Shown: positions 2,995 to 42,833 of the stretch, piece by piece
Position numbering within the stretch: the first letter of the stretch is position 1
How the letters are laid out: every line of letters starts with the position of its first letter
IMG/VR virus record: IMGVR_UViG_3300034101_005257
Location: 1 to 44,768 of that record
DNA from: a virus
DNA: 44,768 nucleotides
Reading direction: 5' to 3' (one strand)
Notes under the pieces: model-generated
Told to the model about the DNA's origin: nothing
What the model saw: the letters and a program-made list of their open reading frames with translations, nothing else
Databases searched by the model: none
Position numbers and translations under genes: made by a program

Positions 2995-2996
2995 AT

Positions 2997-3710: not shown

Positions 3711-4690
3711 GATTCAACAATTTTCTCTAGAAAATTAAGTGTGTAATCAAAATCATAGTAAATTGGTAATTCATTATTCAAAAAAAGAGGGGCTTCAATA
3801 TATTTTTTATACAAATTGTCGTCATTATCTATTCTCTTGATTAACTCCAAAAAATCATTCAAATCCGAAAAATTATGCAAATTTACGAAACTATCAGGGT
3901 TAAATCCCTCCTCTAAAATATATTGATTCCCGTAGAAAATAGGAATAGCACCCGAAAAAAAAGCATGATATAACTTTTCCTGTAATATATAATCAGTATT
4001 TGTGTAGTGTATTGCAATATTAAATTTATACTTTTGAAAAAACTGTATTTTTTCTCTGTAAGTCAATCCATCGTTTCTTCCAATATAAACTTGATTCAAC
4101 CATTGATATTTGTTCAGTTCATCTTTTGGATCTATATTTTGTCTCCAAGGGCCTGATGACGTAACCATCTTATATTCATTTAATTTGTCAAAGACTAAAC
4201 CTCTAAATTTATTATCTGATGCCTGTGTTATTGAACAAAATCCTGTGTTTCTATTCTTAATTTGATCAATATTCCTCTTTTGAGTCAACCAAGATAATGG
4301 ACTATCAACCAATCTTGATTCGTCATATAATGTCCACACATCGAACACACCAGATGGTTGTCTCAAATATCTTTCGTGTTCAAATTTATTGTAACCTATC
4401 GCCCACTGATTGTCATTTGCAAATATAGGTCCTGAAAAATCGGCGACTTCACCTGAAACATAAATAAATTTTTTATTCTTATCATTCTGTCTATATTCTG
4501 TAGGTAAATGATTGGTATATGTATCGATTTGTTCTCTATTATAGTGTAGATCCGAGTGTATTACAATGTCAGGATTAATTGGATCAATAAGTACATTATA
4601 TTTTTTGGATAGTACAAATTTAAAGTAACTCATCCAACTGTGTTGACCGTGATTTGGAAACCCTTGTCTAGTTATTCTGATAGTTTTCAT
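3707..4690 (-). CDS. GT10 alpha-(1,3)-fucosyltransferase-like enzyme
   Basis: The protein has 327 aa. Its C-terminal half carries the GT10 signature in order: YKFNIAIHYTN at 221-231, DYILQEKL at 233-240 (family form DYxTEK), SGAIPIFYG at 246-254 and PDSFVN at 265-270. These residues form the GDP-fucose site in known members. The N-terminal half (1-140) is the variable acceptor-side domain. Bacterial relatives decorate surface glycans. Here the gene is tightly packed between a GT-A gene and a PLOD-like glycosyltransferase, so it likely adds a terminal deoxysugar to the same product. The alternative is modification of host surface polysaccharide. Confidence 0.85.
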   Translation of the reverse strand: MKTIRITRQGFPNHGQHSWMSYFKFVLSKKYNVLIDPINPDIVIHSDLHYNREQIDTYTNHLPTEYRQNDKNKKFIYVSGEVADFSGPIFANDNQWAIGYNKFEHERYLRQPSGVFDVWTLYDESRLVDSPLSWLTQKRNIDQIKNRNTGFCSITQASDNKFRGLVFDKLNEYKMVTSSGPWRQNIDPKDELNKYQWLNQVYIGRNDGLTYREKIQFFQKYKFNIAIHYTNTDYILQEKLYHAFFSGAIPIFYGNQYILEEGFNPDSFVNLHNFSDLNDFLELIKRIDNDDNLYKKYIEAPLFLNNELPIYYDFDYTLNFLEKIVES

Positions 4691-5387
4691 TAATAAATTG
4701 AGTTAATTTTATGGTATTATCGTTGAAGGGTCCATTATCATGAATTATAAACGCATTTGAATTTAACAATGTTACTTTATTATTTTCGATTTCTACATAG
4801 TCTTTATTATCTAACGTACTGAAAAAGAAGTTTTTTTCTTGATCGATGATAATATCATCATTCAATAGATATTGAATTGTCCATCTTCCTTGATCATCAA
4901 TACCCGTTTGATATTCTTTAGTAATAATATCCTCTAAATGATAGATTATTTTTTCAGTGTATCCGAAATATGTACCTGAGTTAAGATATTTGGAATTGTT
5001 TATAGACCTTTTTTTTTCATATAAGTGAGTATAGTTAGTCGGTGGCCACAAACCCTTCTCAGCTCCCATAACTATACTACAATTCAATGAATGAAAATCT
5101 TCAACTATATTTTTTGGTGAACCGATAAAATTTGTGTCCGTGGCATCTAAAAATAGTATATATTTATACTTCCCAAGAATTTGAGATTTAATGTATTCTA
5201 AAAGATTTACTATTTTATAGTAATACAGTTTGTCATAGTAAGATCCATTCTTAACCAAACCAGAATTTCTGACTATGTGAATATCCTCAGATGAAAAATA
5301 TTTCAACGCGTTTTTATAAAAAGATGGTTCGTAATAATCAGGATAGTCAAATAATACTGTAATCAGGCAAATTTTTTCATTTTCCAT
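4668..5387 (-). CDS. PLOD-like (procollagen glucosyl/galactosyltransferase type) glycosyltransferase
   Basis: Key motifs follow the glycosyltransferase domain of lysyl hydroxylase (PLOD) and GT25-like enzymes: LFLDATDTNF, YLNSGTYFG, DDQGRWT and a late acidic residue in IIIDQEKNFF. An upstream ATG at 5417 would add ten residues (MNIIDNWIIN) that overlap the end of the preceding gene. I prefer 5387, which begins MENEKICLIT directly at the first beta-strand and starts 2 nt beyond the preceding stop. In animals and giant viruses such domains glycosylate hydroxylysine of collagen-like proteins; a phage acceptor is unknown. The C-terminus overlaps the start of the GT10 gene by 23 nt. Confidence 0.8.
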   Translation of the reverse strand: MENEKICLITVLFDYPDYYEPSFYKNALKYFSSEDIHIVRNSGLVKNGSYYDKLYYYKIVNLLEYIKSQILGKYKYILFLDATDTNFIGSPKNIVEDFHSLNCSIVMGAEKGLWPPTNYTHLYEKKRSINNSKYLNSGTYFGYTEKIIYHLEDIITKEYQTGIDDQGRWTIQYLLNDDIIIDQEKNFFFSTLDNKDYVEIENNKVTLLNSNAFIIHDNGPFNDNTIKLTQFINENYQNN

Positions 5388-5388
5388 A

Positions 5389-6021
5389 TTAATTATCCAA
5401 TTGTCTATAATATTCATTAATTAAGTTACTATCTGATTGAAACGGTATACCATTTCCGAATACTTTTATAGGTATTTCCTTTTCCCAAAAAAAAGAAATT
5501 TCCTTACCTTTATTTTTCATCAAGATTTCATCACTTCTAACATCATTTTCAATCCAAGAAAATTTTGGAAAAATAACAACTTCATTGTTAATAATTTCTA
5601 AAAATTGTTTATGATGGGCATTACCACGATATTTATTTTGGTATAAAAACGAAAATTCATCATATTTTGATGGTGACGCAATAAACCCCTCAAGTGATAT
5701 TTTAGTCAACAAGTCTGTTAATTCCAAAGGATTAAATACATCTTCAATTGTGTGTGAGCAAATAGAGAAATCAAATTTTCCATAGGTTTCGACATATGAT
5801 AATATCTCACCCCATGTGGTTTTATCTTCCAAATTCAAATTAAAAAAAGTAACATCATCCTTATTGACAACAATCGAATCGGCAACAAATTTACACTCAG
5901 GATAAGACCAAAACATGTAAGATGCACCAACATCAACTGTTTTCAAATTGTTGTCGGATATATATTTTTTTATGTCTTCCCTTTTACCACCGGTGGTGTT
6001 ATATGTCCAACTTTTTATCAT
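5389..6021 (-). CDS. Methyltransferase-like protein (type 11 fold)
   Basis: The protein has 210 aa. TVDVGAS at 28-34 fits a degenerate SAM motif I. FSICSHTIEDV at 85-95 fits the motif that in Methyltransf_11 proteins reads cSHxLEHv. A FIASPSK strand follows. The glycine-rich loop is incomplete compared with active enzymes, so it may be inactive or act on an unusual substrate. It sits between two other cassette genes with 1-2 nt gaps. Confidence 0.6.
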   Translation of the reverse strand: MIKSWTYNTTGGKREDIKKYISDNNLKTVDVGASYMFWSYPECKFVADSIVVNKDDVTFFNLNLEDKTTWGEILSYVETYGKFDFSICSHTIEDVFNPLELTDLLTKISLEGFIASPSKYDEFSFLYQNKYRGNAHHKQFLEIINNEVVIFPKFSWIENDVRSDEILMKNKGKEISFFWEKEIPIKVFGNGIPFQSDSNLINEYYRQLDN

Positions 6022-6023
6022 CT

Positions 6024-6584
6024 TTAATCAAAAAAAACAACACCAGTCCCTGATACATGACCCAAGTTGGTGATTTCCATTTTATCTTCATTTATTGTCT
6101 CCCAAAACTGAGACATTTCATTATTCAAACGTATGTCGTCTAATATCAATATTCCATTATAATTAATTTTTTTCAAATAGTTCAAAAAAATAAGTTCAAA
6201 ATCTCCTGTATGGAAAGTATCTAACAGAATTATTTTGGAATCTAATATGATTTCTTTGTATTTATCACTCATTACGTCATCGACTATAAACTCAACATTT
6301 TGCGGTTTTTCTTTCAATTGTAATTGATCTGTCAAATTAAATGAGTAAACTTTATTTGTTTTGTTTGCGGCCAAAGCCAATGCTGAACAACCTAATAAAG
6401 TACCGACATCAACAAATGATACACCATCAAAATAATTGGATAAAAAAGTTAGTAGTCGATAGTGTTCCTGAGATGATTTTTGTAAAAAATAATTTTGATA
6501 TTCTTCATTATTGATTAAAGAATAAGATTCCATTTTCAACTCATCCAAGTCTTCATTTTTTAAATTGAGAAATAAATCTTTCAT
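6024..6584 (-). CDS. Class I SAM-dependent methyltransferase-like protein
   Basis: The protein has 186 aa. Motif I is FVDVGTLLGCSAL at 57-69. VDDV at 101-104 and LLDTFHTGDFE at 120-130 follow, and GILILDDI at 144-151 is the fourth core strand. This arrangement fits Methyltransf_24-like proteins found in glycan gene clusters. Four nucleotides separate it from the GT60 gene and two from the next methyltransferase-like gene, so the three are cotranscribed. The substrate is unknown; sugar methylation is an inference from the neighbours. Confidence 0.7.
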   Translation of the reverse strand: MKDLFLNLKNEDLDELKMESYSLINNEEYQNYFLQKSSQEHYRLLTFLSNYFDGVSFVDVGTLLGCSALALAANKTNKVYSFNLTDQLQLKEKPQNVEFIVDDVMSDKYKEIILDSKIILLDTFHTGDFELIFLNYLKKINYNGILILDDIRLNNEMSQFWETINEDKMEITNLGHVSGTGVVFFD

Positions 6585-6588
6585 TTTT

Positions 6589-7833
6589 TTATAAATTTCC
6601 TGTCATTCTTTCACCCCACCCTTTAGATTCAGAGTGTGGCCAAACAACCCAATATGCAGGTTTTTCTTCAGCATTGAAAGTTCTCCAAACTTTACAATAC
6701 CCGTCAGGATCTCTAAAAAACCCTTGAATTTCGTGTTTATCCGCATCCTTACGGTATATTGTTTCATCCTTGTGATCATGGAATGCAACCACCCAAAAAT
6801 CATAATCTCTTTCGGGAACCTGATCATAGGCAACATCGATACAATGTTTGAATTGTTTTGTGAATGAGTTGATCCAGTCTTCCTCCGTTTCGTAATTATT
6901 TGGATTTGGTGGATATTCCTTATCCAAAGTGTATTTTTGAACCGCTCTTTTACTAAAGAGGAGACCTGAATATTTTTCATAATCTCTTAAAGTTCTGACG
7001 GGACCAAATCCAAATTGACCTAAGTCAACCATTTCTTCACCATCCATACCAAAAAGTTGTCTGTTTCTCTTATGAGAATGATTGTTCTTTTCAACCCACT
7101 TCTTATCGTCATCCCACTGTTTGGTTCGTCCTTTTCTTGTGTATTCGTGATAAACAACTACCTTGTGAGGGTGAAACAAATCATATCCGTGAGTGTATGC
7201 TCTTGCTGCGATGCTGATTTCCTCTCCGTGGAAATAATATTCAGGGTCGTGTTGAACTTCTTTTGAAAATTTTCCGAGTGTGAAGCAAAAGTGTGCGGAA
7301 TAAAATCTAGCGGGAACTGGTTTGGTTAGTTCAGTCCAACCAGGTATTGTTTCAGGTAGGAAGAAAACTGCACCCTCGGGGATAAATCTATCGAATGCCA
7401 TTCTCCAAGGATCTCTTGCTCTTCCTGCGGGGTCATTATCAGGATCAAATGAACTTACATATCCTGTTAGAAGTGGTTTCTCATGTCCATCTTCTTGTAG
7501 TTGGTCAATCATATCGATCAAAGTGGTGTCCCAACCCTTTTCGAATCTCATATGTGAATCGATTTGGAGGGTATAGGTTTCATTCCTATAAAGTTGTTGG
7601 ATAAGGTGTCTCGCCCAACAAGCTCCGTTTGATTCTTCGTAAGGTATATCTAAAATTCTGAATCTATCATCATTTCTAAATTCTTCTAATTTATCAAAAC
7701 CGTCCTCTTCTTTATATTGTCTTGCAATACCAAACCTTAATTTTTCGGGTCGATCGGCGTTTGAAATCATATCCCTAACTGTGTTTTCTAATTCGGGATC
7801 TCTGTATGATGCTATTTGGACAAATATAGTCAC
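6589..7833 (-). CDS. GT60-type GlcNAc transferase (Skp1 GnT-like) with C-terminal extension
   Basis: The protein has 414 aa and starts at GTG 7833. The N-terminal 240 residues closely follow the GlcNAc family (GT60): FVQIASYRDPEL at 4-15, SNGACWAR at 68-75, the metal-site motif LQIDSHMRF at 89-97, FHGEEISIAARAYTHGYDLF at 201-220 and a late His in YHEYTR at 228-233. The founding eukaryotic enzyme adds GlcNAc to hydroxyproline of Skp1; bacterial and phage members have unknown acceptors. Residues 310-414 form an extra aromatic-rich domain I do not recognise. It lies 3' of the protease and Pro/Thr fibre genes, in the same orientation. Confidence 0.87.
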   Translation of the reverse strand: MTIFVQIASYRDPELENTVRDMISNADRPEKLRFGIARQYKEEDGFDKLEEFRNDDRFRILDIPYEESNGACWARHLIQQLYRNETYTLQIDSHMRFEKGWDTTLIDMIDQLQEDGHEKPLLTGYVSSFDPDNDPAGRARDPWRMAFDRFIPEGAVFFLPETIPGWTELTKPVPARFYSAHFCFTLGKFSKEVQHDPEYYFHGEEISIAARAYTHGYDLFHPHKVVVYHEYTRKGRTKQWDDDKKWVEKNNHSHKRNRQLFGMDGEEMVDLGQFGFGPVRTLRDYEKYSGLLFSKRAVQKYTLDKEYPPNPNNYETEEDWINSFTKQFKHCIDVAYDQVPERDYDFWVVAFHDHKDETIYRKDADKHEIQGFFRDPDGYCKVWRTFNAEEKPAYWVVWPHSESKGWGERMTGNL

Positions 7834-19247: not shown

Positions 19248-20083
19248 GTACATCAAATACTACAATAATATTACCGATCAAGTCATCCAAAACAAAAGAC
19301 TTTTCGGATTTTTTTTCAAAACTTGTTGAATCAATACAAAAACAAAAGGTATTACCAACAGAATTCATAATCGTCCCCACCGCCGAAGAATCACTTCAGT
19401 TATTTTTGACAGATTATGATTTCGGAGACTTACAAAATATAGTCAAAATCGAGACTTATGAAGGTGAACCATCATTTCAAGCACAAATAAACTATGGTGT
19501 GTCAAAAGCAACTAACGAGTGGGTTTCTTTTTGTGAATTCGATGATGAATATTCCGCAATTTGGTTCAAAAATGTAGAAATCTATAAAGAAGCATATCCT
19601 GACTCTCAAGCATTTTTGCCTGTAGTTGTTGATGTCGATGACAAAAACCAATTTGCTGGTTTCACCAACGAAGCAACCTTTGCCGCAAACTTTAATTTGG
19701 ATTACGGTATAGTTACAAACGAGTTACTCGCTCGTTTTCAGAACTTCCAAAGTAGTGGGATGGTTATTAGAAAAGAAACATTCTTGGATTATGGAGGATT
19801 TAAAGAGTCGATGAAGTTAACATTTGTGTATGAATTCTTAATGAGAATGACATATAATTCCGCAATTATAAGAACCATCCCTAAGATTGGTTACAAACAT
19901 ACGAATATGAGGTTAGGATCCATTTTTTGGAATTATAAGTTCGGTGAAAGTCCTTTAAGTCCTGATGAAGCTAAGTTTTGGTTAGAAGTTGCCAAAAAGG
20001 AATACTTCTTCATTCAGGATAGGGAAATAAAATACGAACCTGAATTAGTGGATGAATCCAACGTCAGCAGTAACGGAAACTGA
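19244..20083 (+). CDS. GT2-like (GT-A fold) glycosyltransferase
   Basis: The protein has 279 aa. It begins with the GT2 strand TTIILPIKSS, has Glu/Asp-rich VSFCEFDDEYS at 94-104 in place of the DxD motif, and a later acceptor-side segment SSGMVIRKETFLDYGGF typical of GT2 enzymes. It is encoded just ahead of the late sigma factor, with a 32-nt overlap. It may complete the glycan begun by the group 1 enzyme encoded upstream. Confidence 0.75.
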   Translation: MSTSNTTIILPIKSSKTKDFSDFFSKLVESIQKQKVLPTEFIIVPTAEESLQLFLTDYDFGDLQNIVKIETYEGEPSFQAQINYGVSKATNEWVSFCEFDDEYSAIWFKNVEIYKEAYPDSQAFLPVVVDVDDKNQFAGFTNEATFAANFNLDYGIVTNELLARFQNFQSSGMVIRKETFLDYGGFKESMKLTFVYEFLMRMTYNSAIIRTIPKIGYKHTNMRLGSIFWNYKFGESPLSPDEAKFWLEVAKKEYFFIQDREIKYEPELVDESNVSSNGN

Positions 20084-20795
20084 AAAAGTTAAGAAGGGAC
20101 GTAAACCCAAAGAAAAAAATTATTTCGCCGAGAGGGAGGAACATGCAGTTCGTATGTTCCTTCAGGCCGAAACGTGGGGTGAAAAAAACAAAATCTACGA
20201 TGAGTTTCTCCACGCACCATTGGATAAGATGATTTCATCAATCATAAGACGATATAAGTTATACAGAAAAGATATGGATTTTAATGACATCCATAGTGAT
20301 ACGCATTCTTTTTTATTGACCAAAGTTGATAAATTTCAACCTGAAAAAAACAAAAAAGCATATTCTTATTTCGGAACCATATGTAAAAACTATTTGATGG
20401 GTCAGATCATAAAAGACCAAAAAGATCAGAATAGAAGAATTTCATATGAGGATATTTCAAGTAATTTAGAGAATAGACCTGACTTGATTTATTATTTAGA
20501 ATATGAAAATGTAGAAACGACCGAAGTCATTGATATGTATGTTGAAAAACTTGAAGATTTTATTGAAAAATCTGATCTCAATACAAATGAAATAAAGTTG
20601 GGATATGCTCTTGTTGAATTATTGAAAAACTATGAGAGAGTTTTCTTGGGTAACGACAACAACAAATTCAATAAAAACGTCATACTTCTTTCAATAAGAG
20701 AAATGACAAACATGTCCACAAAAGAAGTCAGGAGTTCAATCAAAAAGTACCGTCATCTGTATTATGAATTCTTAAATAAATTGAATTCTGAATAA
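20052..20795 (+). CDS. 55: T4 gp55-like late-transcription sigma factor
   Basis: The protein has 247 aa. After a Lys-rich N-terminus the region 60-135 matches gp55-type sigma factors: a helix around IIRRYKLYRKDMDFNDI, then KVDKFQPEKNKKAYSYFGTI and NYLMGQIIKDQKDQNRR. This corresponds to sigma region 2, which binds the RNA polymerase clamp and the melted -10 element. A C-terminal helical part (180-240) could bind polymerase or the sliding clamp. In T4, gp55 recognises TATAAATA late promoters. It is the obvious reader for the TATTTAT motif described here. The start at 20052 overlaps the GT2 gene; no better start is seen. Confidence 0.82.
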   Translation: MNPTSAVTETEKVKKGRKPKEKNYFAEREEHAVRMFLQAETWGEKNKIYDEFLHAPLDKMISSIIRRYKLYRKDMDFNDIHSDTHSFLLTKVDKFQPEKNKKAYSYFGTICKNYLMGQIIKDQKDQNRRISYEDISSNLENRPDLIYYLEYENVETTEVIDMYVEKLEDFIEKSDLNTNEIKLGYALVELLKNYERVFLGNDNNKFNKNVILLSIREMTNMSTKEVRSSIKKYRHLYYEFLNKLNSE

Positions 20796-26716: not shown

Positions 26717-28309
26717 ATGATTATGAGAAAACAAATTTTGCTGACCCTGTCACTATTTATGGGTCTTTTGACGACTAATGCTCAAGAATGGACTTGGGAT
26801 TATGTAAACTACAGAGGTGCCTTCCCTGTGACTGACAACACAACAGCCACCGATTGGACTTATGGATGGACAAATTGGGATCCACAAAACACAGAATACC
26901 CAACCCCGTCTATGATCCTTTCTTCTGATATTACGGTTAATACAACCATCGGAGGTGTTGTTGAACTCCAAAACAAAATATATGTCAAAAATGGTGCGGT
27001 TTTGACAATTCAACCAGGAACAATTATCAGAGGAGACGCATCAACACAAGCAACTTTGATTGTCACGAAAGGTTCCAAAATTATTGCACAAGGGACACAA
27101 GACCAACCCATCGTTTTTACATCCAATCAACCTGTGGGTGAGAGAGCTGAGGGTGATTGGGGAGGATTAGTTATTTTGGGTAATGCAATCAATAATCAAC
27201 CTGGTGGTATTGCAAATATCGAAGGTATTCCAGCCTCTTCGGATACTGAATACGGTGGAACTGATGATAATGACAACTCAGGTATATTAGAATATGTTAG
27301 AGTTGAATTTTGTGGTATTGCTCTTGAACCAAATAAAGAAATCAACGGCATTACCTTTGGTTCTGTCGGTTCAGGGACTTATGTAAATAATGTTCAAGTA
27401 TCTTATTCAGGTGATGATTCATTTGAATGGTTCGGTGGAACTGTAAATTGTAAGCACCTCATCGCTTATAGTGGTATTGATGATGATTTTGACACAGACT
27501 TTGGTTACAGAGGAAAAGTTCAATTTGTTTTGTCAATTAGAAACAAATATATGTATGATGCAGTTGGTGACTCTAACTCATTTGAATCAGACAACGATGG
27601 TCAAGGATCTCCTAATGAACCTCTAACCTCACCTGTTTTTTCTAATGTAACTTTGGTTGGACCATTTGGTGATGATGTTACAGAAACTCTTCCAAATGGT
27701 GAGACCTTTGAAAAGGCATTTCGTTTGAGAAGAAACACCTCAACTTCTATCTTCAATTCTTTGGTTACAGGTTGGGAAAAAGGCGTGTCAATTGAAGGTA
27801 TTTCGTCACAAGTGAATGTAACAATCGGAGATTTGGTGTTTGCAAATAATATTTTGGCTGATCTTCCGAATGGTTCAAATTGTGTTTCAGGAACGGAGGA
27901 TTTTTACAACTCATTCTTCGGTGTAAACAACAACGACTCAACAACAACAGTTGAACAAATTGATTGGGTTAATTTGTTTGTTGATTTGGGTTTGACTCCT
28001 GATGCTAGACTTAGCGAAAGTAATTCACCAGCTTTGGGAGCGGATTTCACACATCCACTTTTGTCAAATCCTGTTGTGATCGGTGTTGACAACAAAACCA
28101 CATCCAACTTCACAATTTACCCCAACCCAACCTCTGACTTTTTGAATGTTGTTTCACCAAATAGAACTCCCATCTTCGTGATGAATCAGGTGGGTCAAAG
28201 AGTTTATGAGGATTATGCACCAACCACAATCAATCTTTCAAACTTTGAAGATGGAATTTATTTCATTCAAACATCCAATGATGTTCAGAAGTTTGTAATA
28301 CAAAAGTAA
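26717..28309 (+). CDS. Secreted beta-helix-like protein with T9SS type A sorting domain
   Basis: The protein has 530 aa. It begins with a Sec signal peptide (MRKQILLTLSLFMGLLTTNA, cut before Gln-Glu-Trp); an alternative start is the second Met at 26723. The middle (75-390) contains repeated strand-turn units such as VKNGAVLTIQPGTIIRGDA and SGDDSFEWFGG, with FESDNDG further on, typical of Bacteroidota secreted proteins that neighbour TonB receptors. The last 70 residues are a T9SS C-terminal domain (FTIYPNPTSDFLNV ... GIYFIQTSN), which sends it through the type IX secretion system to the cell surface. The TonB receptor starts 1 nt after its stop. A ligand-capture partner role is inferred. Confidence 0.9.
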   Translation: MIMRKQILLTLSLFMGLLTTNAQEWTWDYVNYRGAFPVTDNTTATDWTYGWTNWDPQNTEYPTPSMILSSDITVNTTIGGVVELQNKIYVKNGAVLTIQPGTIIRGDASTQATLIVTKGSKIIAQGTQDQPIVFTSNQPVGERAEGDWGGLVILGNAINNQPGGIANIEGIPASSDTEYGGTDDNDNSGILEYVRVEFCGIALEPNKEINGITFGSVGSGTYVNNVQVSYSGDDSFEWFGGTVNCKHLIAYSGIDDDFDTDFGYRGKVQFVLSIRNKYMYDAVGDSNSFESDNDGQGSPNEPLTSPVFSNVTLVGPFGDDVTETLPNGETFEKAFRLRRNTSTSIFNSLVTGWEKGVSIEGISSQVNVTIGDLVFANNILADLPNGSNCVSGTEDFYNSFFGVNNNDSTTTVEQIDWVNLFVDLGLTPDARLSESNSPALGADFTHPLLSNPVVIGVDNKTTSNFTIYPNPTSDFLNVVSPNRTPIFVMNQVGQRVYEDYAPTTINLSNFEDGIYFIQTSNDVQKFVIQK

Positions 28310-28310
28310 A

Positions 28311-31094
28311 ATGAAATACTTCAACTTATTTATATTTTTATTCTTACCTTTTTGTTTATTTTCACAATATAATTTATCTGGCACGGTCAACGACTCTCAA
28401 TCACGGGAGTCGTTGATTGGTGCAACGGTATATATTGAGGAATTAGGTAAAGGGACGATGAGTGACCTTGATGGAAACTTCTCAATTCAAAATATTCCTT
28501 CAGGGGTTTATAATGTTAGATTCAGTTTTATCGGTTATGACACTTCAGTTGAAAGTATAAATATGGTTGGAAAAAGTGGGGTTGTTGATGTATCTCTTAA
28601 CCCCGTCTTTTTGGAAATAGGTGAGGCCACAGTTGTTGCTCAGGCAAATCAACAATCTGCAACACAGATGATTGCTTTACAAAAAAGATCAGCATCAGTT
28701 ATTGATGGTGTTTCTTCAGAGGTTTTTAGTAAAACACCCGACGCTAAAGCATCCGATGTATTCAAAAGAGTTGGGGGTGTAACAATACAAGAAAATAAAT
28801 TTGTTATTATCAGGGGTTTAAACGATAGATATAACTTCGCTTATATCAATGGAACTCCTCTCCCTTCAACCGAATCAGATAGAAGAGCATTTTCATTTGA
28901 TTTGTTTCCTTCCAATATGATTGACAACTTGTATGTTAATAAATCGTCCTCACCTGATCTCTCTGGTGAATTCTCAGGTGGTTTAATTAACATCAATACA
29001 ACAGATCCGAAGGAAGTGACATATCAGAATTTTCAGATCGGAACATCATTCAACACGATGACCACCTTCCAAGACTTTGGAACTTACAGAGGGAGTCCGA
29101 TGGATCCAATTGGGTTGGGATCGGAATTTAGATGTTTACCCGACAATATTCCAAACACTTCTGAGTTTGTAAATTTATCCAAACAAGAAAGAGCTGAACT
29201 TGCATCGTTGATTCAAACGGATTGGTCAACATATTCAAGAAAAGCACCTGTATCTTCTACTTTTCAATATTCAGTAGGAAAAAATTATTCATTTGGAAGT
29301 AGAACCCTTCTTTTAAGCGGAGCTTATAATTATTCAAGTCAGTTTAATACCACCACTACAACAAGAAGAGATTTTGAAGAACAAAGTTTGGGTGTTGTTC
29401 AAAAGATGGAACTTAATGACTCAGTTTTTGTTCACAATATCGCAAACAGTGGTCTTCTTAATTTTTCTTTGTTATTAAATCCTAATAATACCATAAAATT
29501 AAAGAACTTTTACACCATAAATTCTGAAGATAGAATTAACGTAAGACAAGGTGTAAGAGAGATGGATAATGACCCAAGACAATGGGAAAGATCCACAAAT
29601 TTTTGGTATACACAAAATAACTTTTTATCACAACAGTTAATTGGAACTCACAACATCATAAATTCAAAGTTGAATTGGAATTTGAGTTACAACAATGTTA
29701 GAAGAGATATTCCAAACTTAAGAAGAATAGTTTACCGAAAATATTCTTTGAATGAAGATGATCCAAATACACAATATACTGCTGTAATACAATCAAATGG
29801 AACTATCCCCACCGCAGCGGGAAATATGTTTTGGTCTTATTCTGATGAAGATCTATATTCAGGAAAATTAGATTGGTCAAGAAATATAACACTCGGTTCA
29901 TTTGAAAATGAAGTGAAGATAGGTGGGATGTATCAACACAGAGATAGAAATTTTATCTCTCGTAACTTAGGTTATTCACAATACAAACCACAAAACGGTT
30001 ATTTTGATAGTTCATTACTTCTTTTGGATCCAAGTCAGATTTTTTCACAAGAAAATATGGGACTATTGGACAATGGGATGGGTGGTTTTAAATTAGATGA
30101 ATCAACCAATGTGGATGATAGTTATAATGCAAACTCCACATTAGGGGCGGGATATACATCATTTGATACAAAATATAAATCATTCAGATTTATCTATGGT
30201 GTAAGAATTGAAAATTACAATCAAAACTTTTTCTACACAGAATTTGGTTCAAATAAACCAATTCATATTAATAGTAATATAACTGACTTCTTACCTTCAT
30301 TCAATTTTGTTTATACAATAAATGAAAAGACCCAACTTAGGTCGTCCGTATATTCAAGTGTTTCAAGACCTGAATTTAGAGAACTCGCACCCTTCACCTT
30401 CTACAACTTTATTCAAGATAATATCATCACAGGAAATCCATATTTAGAAAGAACAAAAATAAATAACCAAGAAGTAAGGTTTGAGTTTTATCCCGATTTA
30501 AATGAGATTTTTTCTATTTCGATATTCAACAAGAACTTAACCAATCCAATTGAATTGATTAATAGAACTGGTGTTTCAGGGGCACCAGAGATTTATTATT
30601 CGAATGTTGAAAGTGCGTTTATCAGAGGTATTGAATTTGAAGGTAAAATAAATCTGATTGACAATCTAAATCTTACATCCAATGTTTCATTGGTTCAATC
30701 TGAAGTTGATTTGAATGGATTTGAGGGATCTGAAAATGGAAGACCATTACAGGGTCAATCACCTTATGTTTATAACTTTGGTTTGTTATATAACACACAA
30801 AATAATTGGAATGTTTCCGCAAGTTACAATATGGTCGGTCCGAGAATCTTCATCGTCGGAAATATTCAAGAACCATCGGTTTGGGAAAATGGGCGAAATT
30901 TGATTGATCTTCAGGTTTCCAAAAAATTCGGAAATATTGAAATGAAATTTAATGTTAGAGATTTACTCTCACAAGATTTGGTGATGTTCCAAGACCTTAA
31001 CGGTAATGAAAAATTGGATGAAGGGGACAACAGATGGCAAGAAACAAGGATGGGATCAAATGTCAATTTTAGTTTGAAATATAATTTCAATTGA
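28311..31094 (+). CDS. TonB-dependent outer-membrane receptor with carboxypeptidase-regulatory-like domain
   Basis: The protein has 927 aa and appears full length. It has a signal peptide (MKYFNLFIFLFLPFCLFS), a carboxypeptidase-regulatory-like domain at 22-100 (SGTVNDSQSRESLIGATVYI, GTMSDLDGNFSI), a plug from about 125 to 250 (SDVFKRVGGVTIQENKFVII, SGEFSGGLININTTDP) and a long barrel ending in NVNFSLKYNFN. Such receptors use TonB/ExbBD energy to import bound nutrients. No frameshift or early stop is seen. Paired with the T9SS protein and a Pho-box-like site, a phosphate-linked uptake role is inferred. Alternatives: other scarce nutrients, or a decoy that blocks superinfecting phages. Confidence 0.92.
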   Translation: MKYFNLFIFLFLPFCLFSQYNLSGTVNDSQSRESLIGATVYIEELGKGTMSDLDGNFSIQNIPSGVYNVRFSFIGYDTSVESINMVGKSGVVDVSLNPVFLEIGEATVVAQANQQSATQMIALQKRSASVIDGVSSEVFSKTPDAKASDVFKRVGGVTIQENKFVIIRGLNDRYNFAYINGTPLPSTESDRRAFSFDLFPSNMIDNLYVNKSSSPDLSGEFSGGLININTTDPKEVTYQNFQIGTSFNTMTTFQDFGTYRGSPMDPIGLGSEFRCLPDNIPNTSEFVNLSKQERAELASLIQTDWSTYSRKAPVSSTFQYSVGKNYSFGSRTLLLSGAYNYSSQFNTTTTTRRDFEEQSLGVVQKMELNDSVFVHNIANSGLLNFSLLLNPNNTIKLKNFYTINSEDRINVRQGVREMDNDPRQWERSTNFWYTQNNFLSQQLIGTHNIINSKLNWNLSYNNVRRDIPNLRRIVYRKYSLNEDDPNTQYTAVIQSNGTIPTAAGNMFWSYSDEDLYSGKLDWSRNITLGSFENEVKIGGMYQHRDRNFISRNLGYSQYKPQNGYFDSSLLLLDPSQIFSQENMGLLDNGMGGFKLDESTNVDDSYNANSTLGAGYTSFDTKYKSFRFIYGVRIENYNQNFFYTEFGSNKPIHINSNITDFLPSFNFVYTINEKTQLRSSVYSSVSRPEFRELAPFTFYNFIQDNIITGNPYLERTKINNQEVRFEFYPDLNEIFSISIFNKNLTNPIELINRTGVSGAPEIYYSNVESAFIRGIEFEGKINLIDNLNLTSNVSLVQSEVDLNGFEGSENGRPLQGQSPYVYNFGLLYNTQNNWNVSASYNMVGPRIFIVGNIQEPSVWENGRNLIDLQVSKKFGNIEMKFNVRDLLSQDLVMFQDLNGNEKLDEGDNRWQETRMGSNVNFSLKYNFN
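28387..28416 (+). other. Strong inverted repeat early in the receptor CDS
   Basis: TCAACGACTC (28387-28396) is followed by a 10-nt loop and the exact complement GAGTCGTTGA (28407-28416). The 10-bp, half-GC stem stands out in an AT-rich genome and sits about 76 nt into the receptor coding region. Confidence 0.6.
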
Positions 31095-32749: not shown

Positions 32750-34552
32750 TTATCTCAATTCGTTGAGGTCGAATGTTCTAACACCATCAACAGTGATTCT
32801 ACCGTAGAATCTGTTGTTCACCATCTTCTTAGCGTATCTGGTCATGATACCCTTGATTGGGGTGAAGTTGAATGGGTTATACATTGTTGGTGTCAATTGG
32901 AGAGGTACATATGGTGCGTAAACGTAACCTGTGTCAAGTAATGACGTTCCCTTATGACCAATCAAGATTTGGTTTGGTGGGAAGTATGGGTCACGGTAAA
33001 CCTGGTATCTACCAGATAATGTACCAACTCTTTCAATACCCATGTTGTATTGATCCTGTTCAGGAGCTGCGTTTGAAACGTGGAAGTATTCCAAGTCATC
33101 AAAAATAGCTGAAACTTCGGATGAAACAACGATCCAGTTCGCACCACCTCTCAATGTTGATTTGTGGATTTGTGCAGAAAGTTGGTTGATCGCAGTGATC
33201 AATGTTTGGTTCCAATCCTTCTGTGTGTACTGGGTTAATGGGTTAGATGATGTACCTCTCTTCCAACCGTTGTAGTCCCATCTTAACTGCCATGCCGCAC
33301 CTTTTCTCAAATCTCTCAAGATTTCTCTGTCGATTTCTGCCGCGACCTGTTCTGATAACAACGCTGTCAATTCAGCCTCAGCGTCGATGTTGTGGAACGC
33401 AGCAACGTCTTGAGCAAGTTCAGGAGACCATTGAGCTCTCAACTTTCTTTCTGAAACAGAAACAGTCACAGACTCAAGATCAAATGAAACTTCACCAATC
33501 TTATCTTCGAATTCGAGTTCTTCATAAATTCTGTAAGTACAGTAGAATTGGGATCCCGCAATTGAAGTACCTGCAAAGGTAGTAGTTAAACCTGAGTAAC
33601 CATCCAATGAATTTGCACCTATGGAACAAGGAACCTGAAGGTCAACTTCTAAGTAAATTTTACCATTCGCATCACAAATATTGTCAAAAGTTCCACCATT
33701 ACCTGTATTGCTTTGTCCGAAAGCTACAGTTTCTTGTGATCCATATTGAACAATTCCTTTTCCGTATTTTTGAGTCACAACTCTAAAGAGTAAGTTACCA
33801 CTACCAGCACCTGAGAATGCACCTCCAGCTATAGTTGTTGCTTTTACAGTCAAATCCGAAAGGAAAGTCTCACTATCAACCATATTACCGTCAGGTCCGA
33901 GTAATTTACCAAAACCACCGTTACTAAATCCTGATAATGTAAGGAGAACTTTTCTGTATTCACCAGCACCATAACCTGATGCAATCAAATCACCACTACT
34001 CCAAACTTGTGTAACAACGTCAGTTGAAGTAATTGAAGAATATCTTCCTTTTGAGTAGTCGAACAAACCAGGAGGGTCCAAAGTTGCTTCATTACCCTCA
34101 TAGAATCTATCATAAAGGTTTTTACCTGTTGAATATCCTTGGTTTGGATTATTATCCCCGTTTGCAACCGCTTCAGGTGAACCAACCGGTGGATAATGTG
34201 CATTTCCTGTATCATAAGCTTGAATCTTAGGTACGAAGTAGAAAAGTTTACCGATAGGTAAGTTCATCGCCTGAACAGAAACGATATCATTAGCCAAAAG
34301 TTTTGAGAAAACTCTTCTGATGATAGGGAATACAACAGTCTCAAATGAACCTGAAGAATCTGTTGATGCCGCTTCGTTGATTAAGTGTGACGCTTGGTTC
34401 TCATAAAGTTGAGCCATGTTTTCTTTTAAGTGTCCGCCCAATCCTTCCAAGAAACCAAGTTTGTCCCATTTGTTTATAGTGTCTTCTTTGATAACTTTAA
34501 GGTGCTTAAGACCGATGTTACCAACTAAACCACTTTCTAATAATGCTCCCAT
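32750..34552 (-). CDS. 23: Major capsid protein (gp23-like)
   Basis: The protein has 600 aa, against 521 in T4 gp23. The N-terminal region (HLKENMAQLYENQA at 41-54, then FETVVFPIIRRVFSKLLAND and PIGKLFYFVPKI) matches gp23 proteins. A maturation cleavage by the gp21-like protease is likely after Glu60 in SHLINE/AAS, matching the I/L-x-E rule. A large Gly/Ser-rich insertion at about 110-330 would form the exposed domain. The C-terminal half has QWSPELAQDVAAFHNIDAE and GTSLLDTGYVYAPY. It is the shell subunit. It follows the prohead core gene by 21 nt and is followed by a strong terminator. Confidence 0.95.
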   Translation of the reverse strand: MGALLESGLVGNIGLKHLKVIKEDTINKWDKLGFLEGLGGHLKENMAQLYENQASHLINEAASTDSSGSFETVVFPIIRRVFSKLLANDIVSVQAMNLPIGKLFYFVPKIQAYDTGNAHYPPVGSPEAVANGDNNPNQGYSTGKNLYDRFYEGNEATLDPPGLFDYSKGRYSSITSTDVVTQVWSSGDLIASGYGAGEYRKVLLTLSGFSNGGFGKLLGPDGNMVDSETFLSDLTVKATTIAGGAFSGAGSGNLLFRVVTQKYGKGIVQYGSQETVAFGQSNTGNGGTFDNICDANGKIYLEVDLQVPCSIGANSLDGYSGLTTTFAGTSIAGSQFYCTYRIYEELEFEDKIGEVSFDLESVTVSVSERKLRAQWSPELAQDVAAFHNIDAEAELTALLSEQVAAEIDREILRDLRKGAAWQLRWDYNGWKRGTSSNPLTQYTQKDWNQTLITAINQLSAQIHKSTLRGGANWIVVSSEVSAIFDDLEYFHVSNAAPEQDQYNMGIERVGTLSGRYQVYRDPYFPPNQILIGHKGTSLLDTGYVYAPYVPLQLTPTMYNPFNFTPIKGIMTRYAKKMVNNRFYGRITVDGVRTFDLNELR

Positions 34553-36161: not shown

Positions 36162-36890
36162 TTATCTTCCCAAAAAATCGGAAAGTTTGTTCATTAAATC
36201 AAGAGACTTACCCAATCCTTTTTCAGATTCAGGTTTTCTTAAATTTCTTTCTTCTTCTATGTTTTCTTCAAAGTTGAATTTATCTTCAGGTTTGTCAAAA
36301 AGATATGCTCCTGGTGTTGATGGTGAACTAACTAAGTCAAAACAGATAAGTTCAAAATCGTCTTGTACTTCATTTTGTTCTCCCTTCTTTTTTAGAGTCC
36401 CCACCCCTCTTGAAGATATACCCATTGTACATCCTTGTCTCATAAGGTTTGCAGCAATATCACCAGGTGTAGAAACAATACCTGTTTCGTGAAACGCTGG
36501 TGAGGTTAGAAGTCTGAGTTTACCCATCAAGGTATTTCCGTCCCACCATACATCATCAATAATGTGTGAAACTCTTTCCAAATCTACAATAGATGATTCG
36601 GGGTGATTCAACTCTGAAAGGGAAGTTCCCTTTTGGATCATTCTCTTATAATTTTCGGCTTCTCTTTTTAATATTTTTTCGGGATATAATCTTCCGTTTC
36701 TATTTGGAGTATCAAACTTTTGAAGAACAGCATAGAATATAAATGGTTTGGAATGATCTCTCATTGACTTGGATTCCATGATAACCTTTTCGTTTTCAGG
36801 ATGATTTGGTGAGATATATCCCGCATCGTGCTCCACCAAAATACCTTTACCGGTTTCGTGAGCCTCAAGTACTCTTAGTTGTTCTTTCAT
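36162..36890 (-). CDS. 21: Prohead protease (gp21-like)
   Basis: The protein has 242 aa. The catalytic layout of T4 gp21/herpes-type head proteases is visible: His96 in SELNHPESSIVD, Ser159-Ser160 in MGISSRGVGTL and Asp185 in CFDLVSSPSTPGA. It is part of the prohead core, cleaves scaffold and capsid proteins at I/L-x-E sites, and then destroys itself. The C-terminal 45 residues are charged, as expected for the self-cleaved tail. The start at 36890 overlaps the preceding gene by 26 nt, and a TATTTAT motif lies within that gene's end. Confidence 0.92.
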   Translation of the reverse strand: MKEQLRVLEAHETGKGILVEHDAGYISPNHPENEKVIMESKSMRDHSKPFIFYAVLQKFDTPNRNGRLYPEKILKREAENYKRMIQKGTSLSELNHPESSIVDLERVSHIIDDVWWDGNTLMGKLRLLTSPAFHETGIVSTPGDIAANLMRQGCTMGISSRGVGTLKKKGEQNEVQDDFELICFDLVSSPSTPGAYLFDKPEDKFNFEENIEEERNLRKPESEKGLGKSLDLMNKLSDFLGR

Positions 36891-37725: not shown

Positions 37726-38178
37726 TCACGCCAACAATTTTACGGGTGTTTCCATCTTTGAAAGATGAAATGAGAAATACCTGTTGGATTTGAAACTATT
37801 TTTTGTAATATATTTACAGATTGTTGTTAATGATTTTTTTAATTGTTCTGATTTGAAATCAATATATTCATCCAAAAATAATGTGATTTCCAAATTCATA
37901 AAACTCCTCTTCCCTTCCTGAATTCCTGAGGTTCTGAGATCAAGATCAACTATTGTTCTTCCGTTGAATATATTCAGATCTATTGAATCCAATAATTTGT
38001 GTTTTATGTCCCTTCTTAATGTATTGACCACCGATGACCACGATTCAAGATCTGTTATTGGTTCCACCCACGCCTGAATGACCAAATAAATTGATTTCAT
38101 AGATTTGAAATCTACCGTACCATAATTTATTTTGAAATCTTTAAATCCATTAATTTTTATTGATTTTCCCTTCTTCAT
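37726..38178 (-). CDS. Hypothetical phage protein
   Basis: The protein has 150 aa and is basic, with an alternating strand-helix pattern: SIYLVIQAWVEPITDLE near 29-45, a helix SSVVNTLRRDIKHKLLDSI and two further strands (TIVDLDLRTSG, FMNLEITLFLDEYI). No family is recognised. The fold could be a ferredoxin-like tail-completion or connector protein, which would fit its place near portal, but this is a guess. It is divergent from the bS21 gene. Confidence 0.5.
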   Translation of the reverse strand: MKKGKSIKINGFKDFKINYGTVDFKSMKSIYLVIQAWVEPITDLESWSSVVNTLRRDIKHKLLDSIDLNIFNGRTIVDLDLRTSGIQEGKRSFMNLEITLFLDEYIDFKSEQLKKSLTTICKYITKNSFKSNRYFSFHLSKMETPVKLLA

Positions 38179-38288
38179 AAAATCCCTTCATATGTAAAAA
38201 CGTTTATTTTTTGAAAAACATAATAAAAATAAGGGTTATTGTCAAAATTTCGTAAATTCGTTTGTATTTATCGTTACAAATACAACTT
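38179..38288. other. Divergent intergenic region upstream of bS21
   Basis: This 110-nt region is the largest non-coding gap in the window. It holds the start regions of the 38178 (minus) and bS21 (plus) genes. A TATTTAT motif lies at 38265-38271, within an 8-bp inverted repeat: TTGTATTT (38262-38269) and AAATACAA (38278-38285). No Shine-Dalgarno precedes the bS21 start. Confidence 0.6.
38265..38271 (+). promoter_or_regulatory. TATTTAT promoter-like motif upstream of bS21
   Basis: The plus strand reads TTTGTATTTATCGTTACA; the core starts 24 nt upstream of the ATG at 38289 and overlaps an inverted repeat that could be an operator. Confidence 0.5.
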
Positions 38289-38474
38289 ATGATAATAGTA
38301 GAGGTAAATAAAAAAAATATAGAGGCCGCTCTGAAAACTTATAAATATAAAGTTTATAAGACCCAAGTTCACAAAAAACTGTGGGAAAATAAAGAATATA
38401 TTAAAGATTCAGTGAAAAACAGAGAAAAGATGAATAAGGCCATCTATGTGAACGACAAGTTTAAAAAGGATTAA
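38289..38474 (+). CDS. rpsU: Ribosomal protein bS21 (phage-encoded)
   Basis: The protein has 61 aa from ATG 38289, which begins MIIVEVNKKNIEAALKTYK, the classic S21 opening (host form MIIVxVxxxExIDxALxRFK). It continues with a basic helix (YKTQVHKKLWENKEYIK) and SVKNREKMNKAIYV, matching SVKRREKxxKAxY. An ATG at 38262 would add nine unrelated residues. bS21 binds the small-subunit platform near the 3' end of 16S rRNA; in Flavobacteriia it helps hide the anti-Shine-Dalgarno. The phage copy likely replaces host bS21 and changes mRNA selection. The stop overlaps the convergent gene by 4 nt. Confidence 0.9.
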   Translation: MIIVEVNKKNIEAALKTYKYKVYKTQVHKKLWENKEYIKDSVKNREKMNKAIYVNDKFKKD

Positions 38475-39154: not shown

Positions 39155-41023
39155 TTATGATCCTAGTAACTCGTTTAGTTTTTTATCAATCTCCTGTAAA
39201 GATTTTTTAGCTTTGTTGATATTGAGTTCTACAACACCGTTTAACATATTATCTTCAAGGATTAAATTTTCATCTTTTTCTTTGGATTCAGGAGTTACTT
39301 CAGCCGGTGGAGGTATAGTCTCTGTTTCAGTACCACCTGTTTCAGCCGCAGGTTCAGGAACTGTGGTTGTACCCCCTACCTCACCAAAACCACCTAAATC
39401 AGGACTTGTTGTTTCTCCACCACCTGGTGTTGTTGCCTCACCTGCACCTGCTTCACCTCCCTCCTTTGGTTTTCCATTACCGTACAACTTGTCAATATTG
39501 TCAAATATACCTGTCTTGGTAATTACATTCGGAGTTTCTTCAAGTTCCTTAGCTACAGCTTTTTCAATTCTTTGTTGTTGTATATCCAACTTAATTTCTT
39601 CATCACTGAACCCAAGAATATGTTTCTTAGCCCAAGAAGCGGATACCGCCTGAATACCATTTCCAGGATCAGTAACTGCGTCTCTGTAGAGTTGGATTTT
39701 GGATTGAAGTTGTTCAATCTTCAACATATCCTGTTGTGTTGATGGATTGGTTAGACCCAAAGTGAAGTTATTAAGTTCGTCCTCAAATCCCAAGATATAT
39801 AGATGAATAATCGCGATTTTATTTAATTCTTGAATCATCGCTTGTTGAATTCTATTGATGGTCCTTGAAAATCTAATATCCAAAAGAGAAAGATTCTTAC
39901 CATCACCAACCACTTCTTCAAATCCAAGGAAAGCTTTCGGTATTCTTAAAGCGGTCAATAATTTCTTTTGAATATATTCAATATCCGCAATTTCACTCAG
40001 ATTCTGAGCGCCAGGTAAAGTATCAATTGGATTTGGTGCGTTCGGATCACGAACAGGAATAAAATAATCCTGATCCACGGCCATCTGATTATATCTCATA
40101 TCCACATTACCATTCTTTGGATCCACAATTTGGTCTCTCTTGAATTTGTTGGCAACCCTTTGGACATAGGCTTCAACATCTTTATCATCCATATTTCCAA
40201 CAAAAACTTTGAAAACTCTTCTTTCAGGTGCTCTTGATGTTCTATAGATTAACATCGCATCTTCCGACAAAAGAAGTTGTTTCCAAACTCTTCTTGCTTT
40301 TTCTAACATAGAAGTTCCATAGGGTAATTTTGAGTCGTCACCCAAAAGTCTAAAGTGAGCAACCTCCCACGTATTGAATTCTATATTTTTATTTTTCCAA
40401 GTAAAAGTTAAGTGGGTATTTTCAACACCGGTATTCATTGCAACGGTATTAACAACCATACCTCTCTCGAATCTTTCGATTTCAATATTTGGTAATTGTT
40501 GTGCTCCGACAACACCTTGTTCAGGATCTATCTTTAAATAGAGAAAATTATCACCATACTTACAAGTATTTCTTGTCCACATAGGTAAGTTGGTATTAAT
40601 ATCCAACTTGTTATTGAACAAGTCGGCCAAAATACTTTTGATTCTATTGGATTCTGAATATATTTGAAGTATAAATCCATTTTCATTTGGGGTTGTTGAT
40701 TCTTCAGCATAAATGTCCAAAGCTGCGGATATTTCGGGTGTAAACTCCATAGATTCATAATCATAATATGAAGCCAACCTTGTTGGTTCATAATATACGG
40801 CTTGTGTGTAAAGATTGTTTTCAACCTTTGACCATTGGTTTGCCAAATACAAACTCTGTTGAGCTTGAAGTTTTTCCTTTTCGTATTCCCCTTTAGATTT
40901 GGTTCTTAAAATTTCTTTTTTATCGAACCTATATTGAGGAACTTGTTGATCCAATGTGGAATCTGGTCCAAAGACCCTTGAAAGTCGTTGCCAAATTGTA
41001 TATTGTTGATTAGTTTGTGCCAT
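39155..41023 (-). CDS. 20: Portal protein (gp20-like)
   Basis: The protein has 622 aa. Hallmarks of gp20 are visible: a conserved N-terminal half (SMEFTPEISAALDIYAEEST near 91-110, CKYGDNFLYLKI near 154-165) and the stem/wing region (KFKRDQIVDPKNG, LLTALRIPKAFLGFEE). The C-terminal 100 residues are a Gly/Thr/Pro/Glu-rich linker (GGEAGAGEATTPGGGETT) before a final helix, longer than in T4. Twelve copies form the DNA-entry ring and bind terminase. It is encoded 40 nt after the terminase gene. Confidence 0.95.
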   Translation of the reverse strand: MAQTNQQYTIWQRLSRVFGPDSTLDQQVPQYRFDKKEILRTKSKGEYEKEKLQAQQSLYLANQWSKVENNLYTQAVYYEPTRLASYYDYESMEFTPEISAALDIYAEESTTPNENGFILQIYSESNRIKSILADLFNNKLDINTNLPMWTRNTCKYGDNFLYLKIDPEQGVVGAQQLPNIEIERFERGMVVNTVAMNTGVENTHLTFTWKNKNIEFNTWEVAHFRLLGDDSKLPYGTSMLEKARRVWKQLLLSEDAMLIYRTSRAPERRVFKVFVGNMDDKDVEAYVQRVANKFKRDQIVDPKNGNVDMRYNQMAVDQDYFIPVRDPNAPNPIDTLPGAQNLSEIADIEYIQKKLLTALRIPKAFLGFEEVVGDGKNLSLLDIRFSRTINRIQQAMIQELNKIAIIHLYILGFEDELNNFTLGLTNPSTQQDMLKIEQLQSKIQLYRDAVTDPGNGIQAVSASWAKKHILGFSDEEIKLDIQQQRIEKAVAKELEETPNVITKTGIFDNIDKLYGNGKPKEGGEAGAGEATTPGGGETTSPDLGGFGEVGGTTTVPEPAAETGGTETETIPPPAEVTPESKEKDENLILEDNMLNGVVELNINKAKKSLQEIDKKLNELLGS

Positions 41024-41063: not shown

Positions 41064-42833
41064 TTATCTTCTCATTCCTCCGAAGAGCCATAAATATTTC
41101 TCTACGTCTTTCTGATTATAACTTCGATTGGAATCGTTATTTGTTTGACCATAATACGATGGAACACTCGGATTCATAAAGTCAGTTTTATATTTTACAC
41201 TTTCATTTACCGTCCAAGAATCAATCATTGCTTTTGCTTGTTCGGTCACCTTTGTAAGTTTGGAAAAACTACTTTCCCCAACATATAAAGCCATAGCAAC
41301 AGACATAATCAAGTCGTCATGTTGTCCTTTGATATGGTCAGGTCTTCCGTTTATATAAACAAAAGTTAGTAATTCATTATATAATCTTGATGATCTGATT
41401 TTGAAACCGTGTCTAATATATTCTTCAAAAGTTGCAATAATCTGAACCCTTTTGTTATTGAAATTAATTCCCGGTATTTTCTCTTGCGCTTTTGGATCAT
41501 ATTTCCATATGTCAGTCGATACTTGACCATCGATATAAAGGTTTTTATACCCCAGCTCTTGCATCTTCCTTGCCGTTGATACACCCATACCACCCGTGAT
41601 GTCAATAACCACAAATGCGTTGTATCTTTGTGCCCATTTTAAGGCAATTTCAGCGGCAATATCAGGTGGAACTTTGTCCAAAAATTCAACAACCTGTTCT
41701 CTTGTATCAAAATCAACTATATTAAAGGTTGTAAAGTCCTCTGAATCACCTCTTGACACATCCACACCCATAATATATTTGTGATCCAATATTGGATCCT
41801 CCCAAACCCATAACGCCCCTCCCATCATCTTGTCTTTGGGTTCTTTAATATCATTTTTCTTGATTTTTTCCATAGTTCCAGAGTCAATGACATTGTCACC
41901 CGAACCAAGAAAGTTACACTCCAATTCTTGAGACACCTTTCTTCTATCGTATTTCAACTTCTTAACCATAGTTTCAAACCAAGAAGAACAAGGTTTATAA
42001 CCTTCATTGATTTTTTGAATAACAAATTCAAGATCCAAATCCCAACCCGCACCATCCAACCTAATTACGTGTTCCTCTTCAGAATATTCTTCTTTATTTA
42101 ACAAATAATGAACTATATCTTTGGTTTTTACTAAATAAAGGTCTTTGGTATATCTTGGATCTCTATACCAATACATTTCAGATATTTTAAAATCATTCAT
42201 ACCCCGTAAAGCTTGATCGTAAATTGAATAATAAATTTGATCAAATCCGTTGGGAGTTGAAATAACTATAACTTTACCACCCGTTGAGAGTGAGGCCATA
42301 CAAGCCGCCCAGAAATCATCATCCGCTTCAATATATGCTGCTTCGTCAAATACAAGGATAGTTGGGGTATAACCTCTCAATGCGTCTTTTGATGTTGCAA
42401 CCGCTTTTACTTCACAACCATTTGTCAATCTGAAGTGACGTTGGGAGTTTTTTTCCGATGAAAAACTAACGCCAAACCAATCGGGCCATTGCTCTTGGAA
42501 AGACCTGATTTTATCGGCCATACCAACGGCAGTGTCAAGTTTGTTGGCAATGATCAATATCTTTTCAGGTTTTCCCTTCGGAGCTGTGATCAACTTTTTG
42601 GAAATCCAAGCTGCGGTGACAGTGGAAACTCCCGCCTGTCTATATTTTAACGCAATATTTTCTTCAAACTTTTCAAAATCCTCAATCAATTTCACTTGGT
42701 CAGGAAACAACTTCAGGGGTACGAACCCCTGAACTGTTTGATCATAAGTTTTCAAATATGTTTTTAACGCATATTCAGGACTTTTGACACATTTGGCATA
42801 TTCTAATAATACCTGTTCTCTTGTTAACCCCAT
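41064..42833 (-). CDS. 17: Terminase large subunit (gp17-like)
   Basis: The protein has 589 aa. The ATPase half has Walker A in KYRQAGVSTVTA (RQAGVST 65-71) and Walker B in ILVFDEAAY (161-167), followed by VISTPNG (motif III). The RNase H-like nuclease half has Asp358 in MGVDVSRGDSEDF, Asp411 in VVIDITGGMG and Asp506-Asp507 in GQHDDLIMSVAMAL. It packages DNA into proheads through the portal and cuts concatemers. The length matches T4 gp17 (610 aa). Three nt separate it from the 429-aa gene upstream. Confidence 0.97.
   Translation of the reverse strand: MGLTREQVLLEYAKCVKSPEYALKTYLKTYDQTVQGFVPLKLFPDQVKLIEDFEKFEENIALKYRQAGVSTVTAAWISKKLITAPKGKPEKILIIANKLDTAVGMADKIRSFQEQWPDWFGVSFSSEKNSQRHFRLTNGCEVKAVATSKDALRGYTPTILVFDEAAYIEADDDFWAACMASLSTGGKVIVISTPNGFDQIYYSIYDQALRGMNDFKISEMYWYRDPRYTKDLYLVKTKDIVHYLLNKEEYSEEEHVIRLDGAGWDLDLEFVIQKINEGYKPCSSWFETMVKKLKYDRRKVSQELECNFLGSGDNVIDSGTMEKIKKNDIKEPKDKMMGGALWVWEDPILDHKYIMGVDVSRGDSEDFTTFNIVDFDTREQVVEFLDKVPPDIAAEIALKWAQRYNAFVVIDITGGMGVSTARKMQELGYKNLYIDGQVSTDIWKYDPKAQEKIPGINFNNKRVQIIATFEEYIRHGFKIRSSRLYNELLTFVYINGRPDHIKGQHDDLIMSVAMALYVGESSFSKLTKVTEQAKAMIDSWTVNESVKYKTDFMNPSVPSYYGQTNNDSNRSYNQKDVEKYLWLFGGMRR

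Follow-up and report, generated by a model that had tools for sequence, protein, structure and literature searches.

A divergent phage gene for ribosomal protein bS21 with a leader lacking a Shine-Dalgarno sequence and a candidate late-promoter element in a Bacteroidota virus

A 44.8-kb record of IMG/VR (this whole stretch of DNA is called the window in the following) was here analyzed with respect to a bS21 gene lying in the head gene block of a virus, which is a phage of Bacteroidota bacteria. As the best overall explanation, which is considered moderately probable as a whole, this bS21 would be expressed late, be translated without a Shine-Dalgarno (SD) sequence, join the 30S subunit and keep the anti-SD sequence hidden. 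The gene, its layout and the idea of a late ribosome takeover have already been published for freshwater Bacteroidetes phages, as has the aromatic residue at position 54 of the protein (Chen et al. 2022, PMC9723584). Since arrangement, late takeover and aromatic residue are all contained in that study, the core of the finding is already known; the window bS21 belongs to the published Bacteroidetes bS21-phage group, and the system is ordinary in kind. Three points are new: throughout the group, the bS21 leaders of the viruses contrast with those of hosts; bS21 and structural genes are tied together by a candidate late-promoter element; and any model of escape from host feedback depends on the host, which calls for caution. 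The main text of PMC9723584 contains neither a leader analysis nor the promoter element. Taken together, these additions make the general idea testable in F. johnsoniae, where an rpsU reporter can be used. The positions of the relevant features are collected in Table 1.

Table 1. Features of the window discussed in the text
Feature	Position	Strand	Basis or remark
bS21 gene (61 aa)	38289..38474	+	ORF translation, Pfam match, alignment; Tyr53 corresponds to Tyr54 of F. johnsoniae
TATTTAT, candidate late-promoter element, 24 nt ahead of the bS21 start codon	38265..38271	+	enrichment, relatives
GTCAAAA, 17 nt upstream of TATTTAT	38241..38247	+	kept in divergent relatives
Short A/T-rich stretch from the element to the ATG, without 16S tail pairing	38272..38288	+	
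Divergent neighbour (150 aa), without known family	37726..38178	-	compact alpha/beta predicted fold; always adjoins bS21 in the phage group
Convergent neighbour (223 aa), overlaps the bS21 stop codon	38471..39142	-	all-helical predicted fold; located downstream of bS21 throughout the phage group
Portal protein	39155..41023	-	
Terminase large subunit	41064..42833	-	
Prohead protease	36162..36890	-	
Major head protein	32750..34552	-	
Sigma-70-like protein	20052..20795	+	weak match below curated cut-offs
T9SS-sorted protein	26717..28309	+	adjoins head genes
TonB-dependent receptor (927 aa), intact	28311..31094	+	adjoins head genes
Run of eight genes resembling sugar-modifying enzymes	686..7833	-	

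The bS21 ORF starts with ATG and ends with TAA, and its translation matched Pfam family PF01165 with 29.8 bits, above the cut-off of 27. Against the NCBIfam equivalog TIGR00030 it reached 21.9 bits, which is below the equivalog cut-off of 28.95, and because of this score the protein is classified by sequence as a divergent homologue without certified equivalog status. The best solved relatives were the bS21 chains of 9i5v and 7jil, the latter being the F. johnsoniae ribosome (PMC9723584). Scans of viral contigs yielded 239 bS21 loci; these comprise 114 unique combinations of protein and leader, and their 109 unique proteins formed 54 clusters at 80% identity. Because these 109 distinct homologues are found nearly all at the same genomic place, the ORF is, as judged by comparison, a real gene and no chance ORF. 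An alternative start codon (TTG at position 38262) was dropped, as the relatives all align from the ATG. A preliminary description of the window had reported a complete bS21 in the head block; identity and completeness were borne out by the ORF and the PF01165 match, but the gene runs antiparallel to the head genes.

Within the head block, the antiparallel bS21 gene is flanked by a divergent and a convergent gene (Table 1). For loci in which portal and protease genes were both visible, the two neighbour families were the same throughout the phage group, and bS21 was antiparallel to the portal gene in 199 of 199 loci (99/99 unique genes). The Bacteroidetes bS21 phages of PMC9723584 are described alike, with TerL, portal, protease and MCP encoded on one strand and bS21 on the other, two hypothetical flanking families, an aromatic position 54 and the same host phylum. 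Among the cultured phages in INPHARED no close relative of the window was found. The closest relatives, which may likewise be fragments, are up to 118 kb in length; complete genomes of Bacteroidetes bS21 phages have about 293-331 kb (Chen et al. 2022, PMC9723584). From a bS21 tree, no bacterial group could be singled out as the source of the phage gene. The fold of the divergent neighbour was predicted with a pLDDT of 90; in fold searches, no PDB entry matched significantly (Foldseek best E 0.026; VIA Z ≤7.4), and the single significant fold match was an uncharacterised viral protein. The same gene is preceded by a GAAGGGA motif (−9.1 kcal/mol), one of the three stronger SD-like leaders of the window.

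Leader strength was expressed as the predicted pairing with the 16S tail UCACCUCCUUUCU, and values of −13 kcal/mol or below were taken as a strong or extended SD. The leader of the window bS21 gave +0.7 kcal/mol, which is as weak as a mock window and corresponds to no SD, and its last 20 nt comprise 8 A and 7 T; of the A-rich, SD-less leader initially described, the missing SD was confirmed, while the composition is A/T-rich. The 114 unique viral leaders had a median of −0.5 kcal/mol, with none at or below −13 and five at or below −7 kcal/mol; the two strongest, L051 (−9.7) and L052 (−12.1), are located on contigs in which the conserved neighbours are missing and which apparently do not belong to the phage group. 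In contrast, the rpsU leaders of Flavobacterium and its near relatives ranged from −17.5 to −22.1 kcal/mol, and 73/73 unique leaders were at or below −13. Likewise, F. johnsoniae rpsU carries an extended SD and is autoregulated (McNutt et al. 2023, PMC9976891), whereas the phage gene, which encodes a homologous protein with Tyr54 kept, has none. The strong SD ascribed to host rpsU at the outset therefore holds for Flavobacterium and near relatives, but when the GTDB order of Flavobacterium was sampled broadly, it was present in only 16 of 68 leaders, with a further set showing a Chryseobacterium-type variant. Four Flavobacteriales genomes encode bS21 in two or three different versions; in these, one copy retains a strong SD (−17.6 to −19.4 kcal/mol), and its paralogues have a weaker SD or none (−0.8 to −9.8 kcal/mol).

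Across the whole window, 3 of 44 leaders were at or below −7 kcal/mol, compared with 2 of 44 mock windows. Genes of this phage lack an SD by default; this is no special trait of bS21, which is not singled out because nearly all leaders of the window are SD-less. For non-Bacteroidota phages, which were collected as a control with E. coli bS21 as query, the median was −6.3 versus −4.9 kcal/mol for mock windows, a comparison weakened by starts that are hard to place and by many leaders lying inside acidic coding sequence. Upstream of the ATG lies an 8-bp inverted repeat (TTGTATTT...AAATACAA), for which a role as operator or hairpin was rejected: the repeat is not kept in divergent relatives, and in the minimum-energy fold from upstream the region pairs with coding sequence.

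TATTTAT was the top enriched 7-mer within 40 nt upstream of the genes of the window (9 of its 31 copies, compared with an expectation of 0.5; p = 5e-5 when the rate of 7-mers made of A and T only is taken as reference). Within a span of 60 nt it precedes the genes at 9119-11515, 11573-12349, 24873-26372, 34574-35824 and 36865-37710 as well as those of the prohead protease, bS21, the convergent neighbour and the portal protein (Table 1); the eight genes other than bS21 are mostly structural. All 23 related loci tested likewise showed enrichment of TATTTAT before genes, e.g. 7 of 16 copies versus 0.2 expected. Of 101 unique viral bS21 leaders, 76 contained the pattern TATTTRT, compared with 6.3 ± 2.4 in dinucleotide shuffles and 5 in antisense orientation; of the 73 leaders of Flavobacterium and near relatives, 1 contained it. 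Several subgroups (e.g. L053, L021, L059) have TATTTGT in place of TATTTAT, down to 12 nt before the ATG, a spacing that would make the bS21 mRNA nearly leaderless; TATTTGT is hardly present before other genes.

By position and strand, TATTTAT fits a shared late promoter of the phage. GTCAAAA is a possible upstream promoter element, and the sigma-70-like protein, for which a PHROGs search returned no family, is a candidate reader of TATTTAT. If TATTTAT were the −7/−10 box, the bS21 leader would have a length of only about 10 nt, which by itself would leave little room for an SD. The late expression presumed in the preliminary description is consistent with the shared element and with published metatranscriptomes of relatives, in which bS21 is transcribed together with structural genes (PMC9723584); late timing was measured only in these relatives and would apply to the window phage by analogy.

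Alignment of the C-terminus with host bS21 showed that the anti-SD-touching Tyr54, the residue stacking on the 16S tail, is retained as Y53 in the phage protein. All 109 viral proteins have an aromatic residue at position 54 (Tyr in 103, Phe in 3 and His in 3), and L16, K20, K22, K40 and R46 are invariant among them. The tail-hiding contact, which was seen for bS21 in F. johnsoniae (PMC9976891), is likely kept in the phage protein because position 54 and core residues are conserved. Positions 18, 21, 23, 24, 27, 28 and 30, which are invariant or nearly so in the sampled Flavobacterium-type hosts, are mostly changed in phages. The host-invariant residues R18, R21, F23, D24, G27 and R30 differ in the phage, and F23 to V/I, T28 to Q and G27 to K/R are consistent phage-specific changes at such positions. 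The N-terminal half of bS21 is placed where mRNA would bind (PMC9723584). Assembly into the ribosome could be altered, because the protein scores below the equivalog cut-off and many host-invariant residues are changed.

In the preferred explanation, bS21 would be transcribed late and antiparallel to the head genes, using a separate promoter whose TATTTAT element is shared with several structural genes, and would be translated without an SD like nearly all genes of the phage. We infer that its product most likely replaces host bS21 in the host 30S subunits, where the anti-SD tail should stay hidden because the Tyr54 contact and the basic core are kept. Such ribosomes should remain adapted to mRNAs without an SD, to which the late mRNAs of the phage belong; the substitutions towards the N-terminus may shift the selection of mRNAs and hence possibly initiation. 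Ribosomes of F. johnsoniae without bS21 or its C-terminus initiate more poorly on SD-less mRNAs (PMC9976891). Incorporation of the phage protein into ribosomes is plausible by analogy with the likewise phage-encoded bS21 of Pelagibacter phage HTVC008M, which was shown to enter E. coli 70S ribosomes, as reported in PMC9723584 for the study of Mizuno et al. 2019 (PMC6375957). The two phages differ in host phylum. Sequestration of the anti-SD by the ribosome is not known for the host phylum of HTVC008M. A literature search found no experiment on these phage proteins in a Bacteroidota ribosome.

Adjoining the head genes, the window encodes a T9SS-sorted protein and an intact TonB-dependent receptor, the latter also present in the contigs of 4 of 4 close relatives with 81-100% identity; the carriage of a host outer-membrane receptor pair by a phage is unusual. 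The closest homologues of both proteins stand side by side in one Bacteroidota family. Identities to this family were 45-55% for the receptor (up to 1043 bits, compared with at most 490 bits elsewhere in a phylum-wide sample) and 55-66% for the T9SS protein (about 576-633 bits; the remaining genomes of the comparison gave 307 or less). The family is taken to belong to a different order from Flavobacterium because the two order-level samples had no genome in common. Judged from these two genes, a non-Flavobacteriales Bacteroidota family is the likely host, whereas Flavobacteriia are favoured as main hosts in PMC9723584. Among the rpsU leaders of the likely host family, 0 of 51 were at or below −13 and 1 of 51 at or below −7 kcal/mol. 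The genomes with the closest receptors had no rpsU leader with an SD (0/20), and for the best bS21 matches of the order 0 of 10 leaders reached −7 kcal/mol. The 16S tail was canonical in the three genomes where the pattern was found.

These leaders bear directly on the claim made at the outset that the phage gene escapes an SD-based feedback on host rpsU. With phage bS21 filling the 30S subunits, host synthesis would be shut while synthesis from the SD-less phage gene continues. Such feedback was shown in F. johnsoniae (McNutt et al. 2023, PMC9976891), and the strong rpsU leaders of Flavobacterium and near relatives (73/73), the weak viral ones (median −0.5 kcal/mol, 0/114 at or below −13) and the aromatic position 54 in every viral protein agree with a bypass. 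Against it stand the general lack of SDs in the phage, the scarcity of strong rpsU leaders across the GTDB order of Flavobacterium and the SD-less rpsU of the likely host family; if this family is the host, there would be no SD feedback to escape, since its rpsU is SD-less. The SD-less leader is thus no evidence of feedback bypass, and the claim is unsupported for this virus, for which we regard a bypass as quite unlikely. Escape is possible only for members of the group infecting hosts with an SD before rpsU. There, an SD-less copy under a late promoter might take over the 30S pool and the host's own feedback silence host bS21, a doubtful scenario which, if true, would mean that a ribosome population is converted without a dedicated shut-off factor.

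The substitutions F23 to V/I, T28 to Q and G27 to K/R and the published structure mapping (PMC9723584) would also suit a redirection of translation as proposed in that study, whereby the alterations in the N-terminal half would lead ribosomes to favour phage leaders at the expense of host mRNAs. However, no shared phage-specific ribosome-binding sequence was found in the leaders analyzed here, and phage leaders and the rpsU leaders of the likely host are both SD-less and A/T-rich, so this possibility is rated unlikely. A role outside the ribosome, for example as a basic RNA-binding or virion protein, would accord with the position among head genes, and packaging into virions is raised as a possibility in PMC9723584; conservation of the bS21 core and of the aromatic position 54 across 109 proteins makes such a role very improbable.

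At the other end of the window, a run of eight genes on the minus strand (Table 1) resembles glycosyltransferases, methyltransferases and related sugar-modifying enzymes, with one weak YibB-like match, and represents a possible surface-modification cluster.
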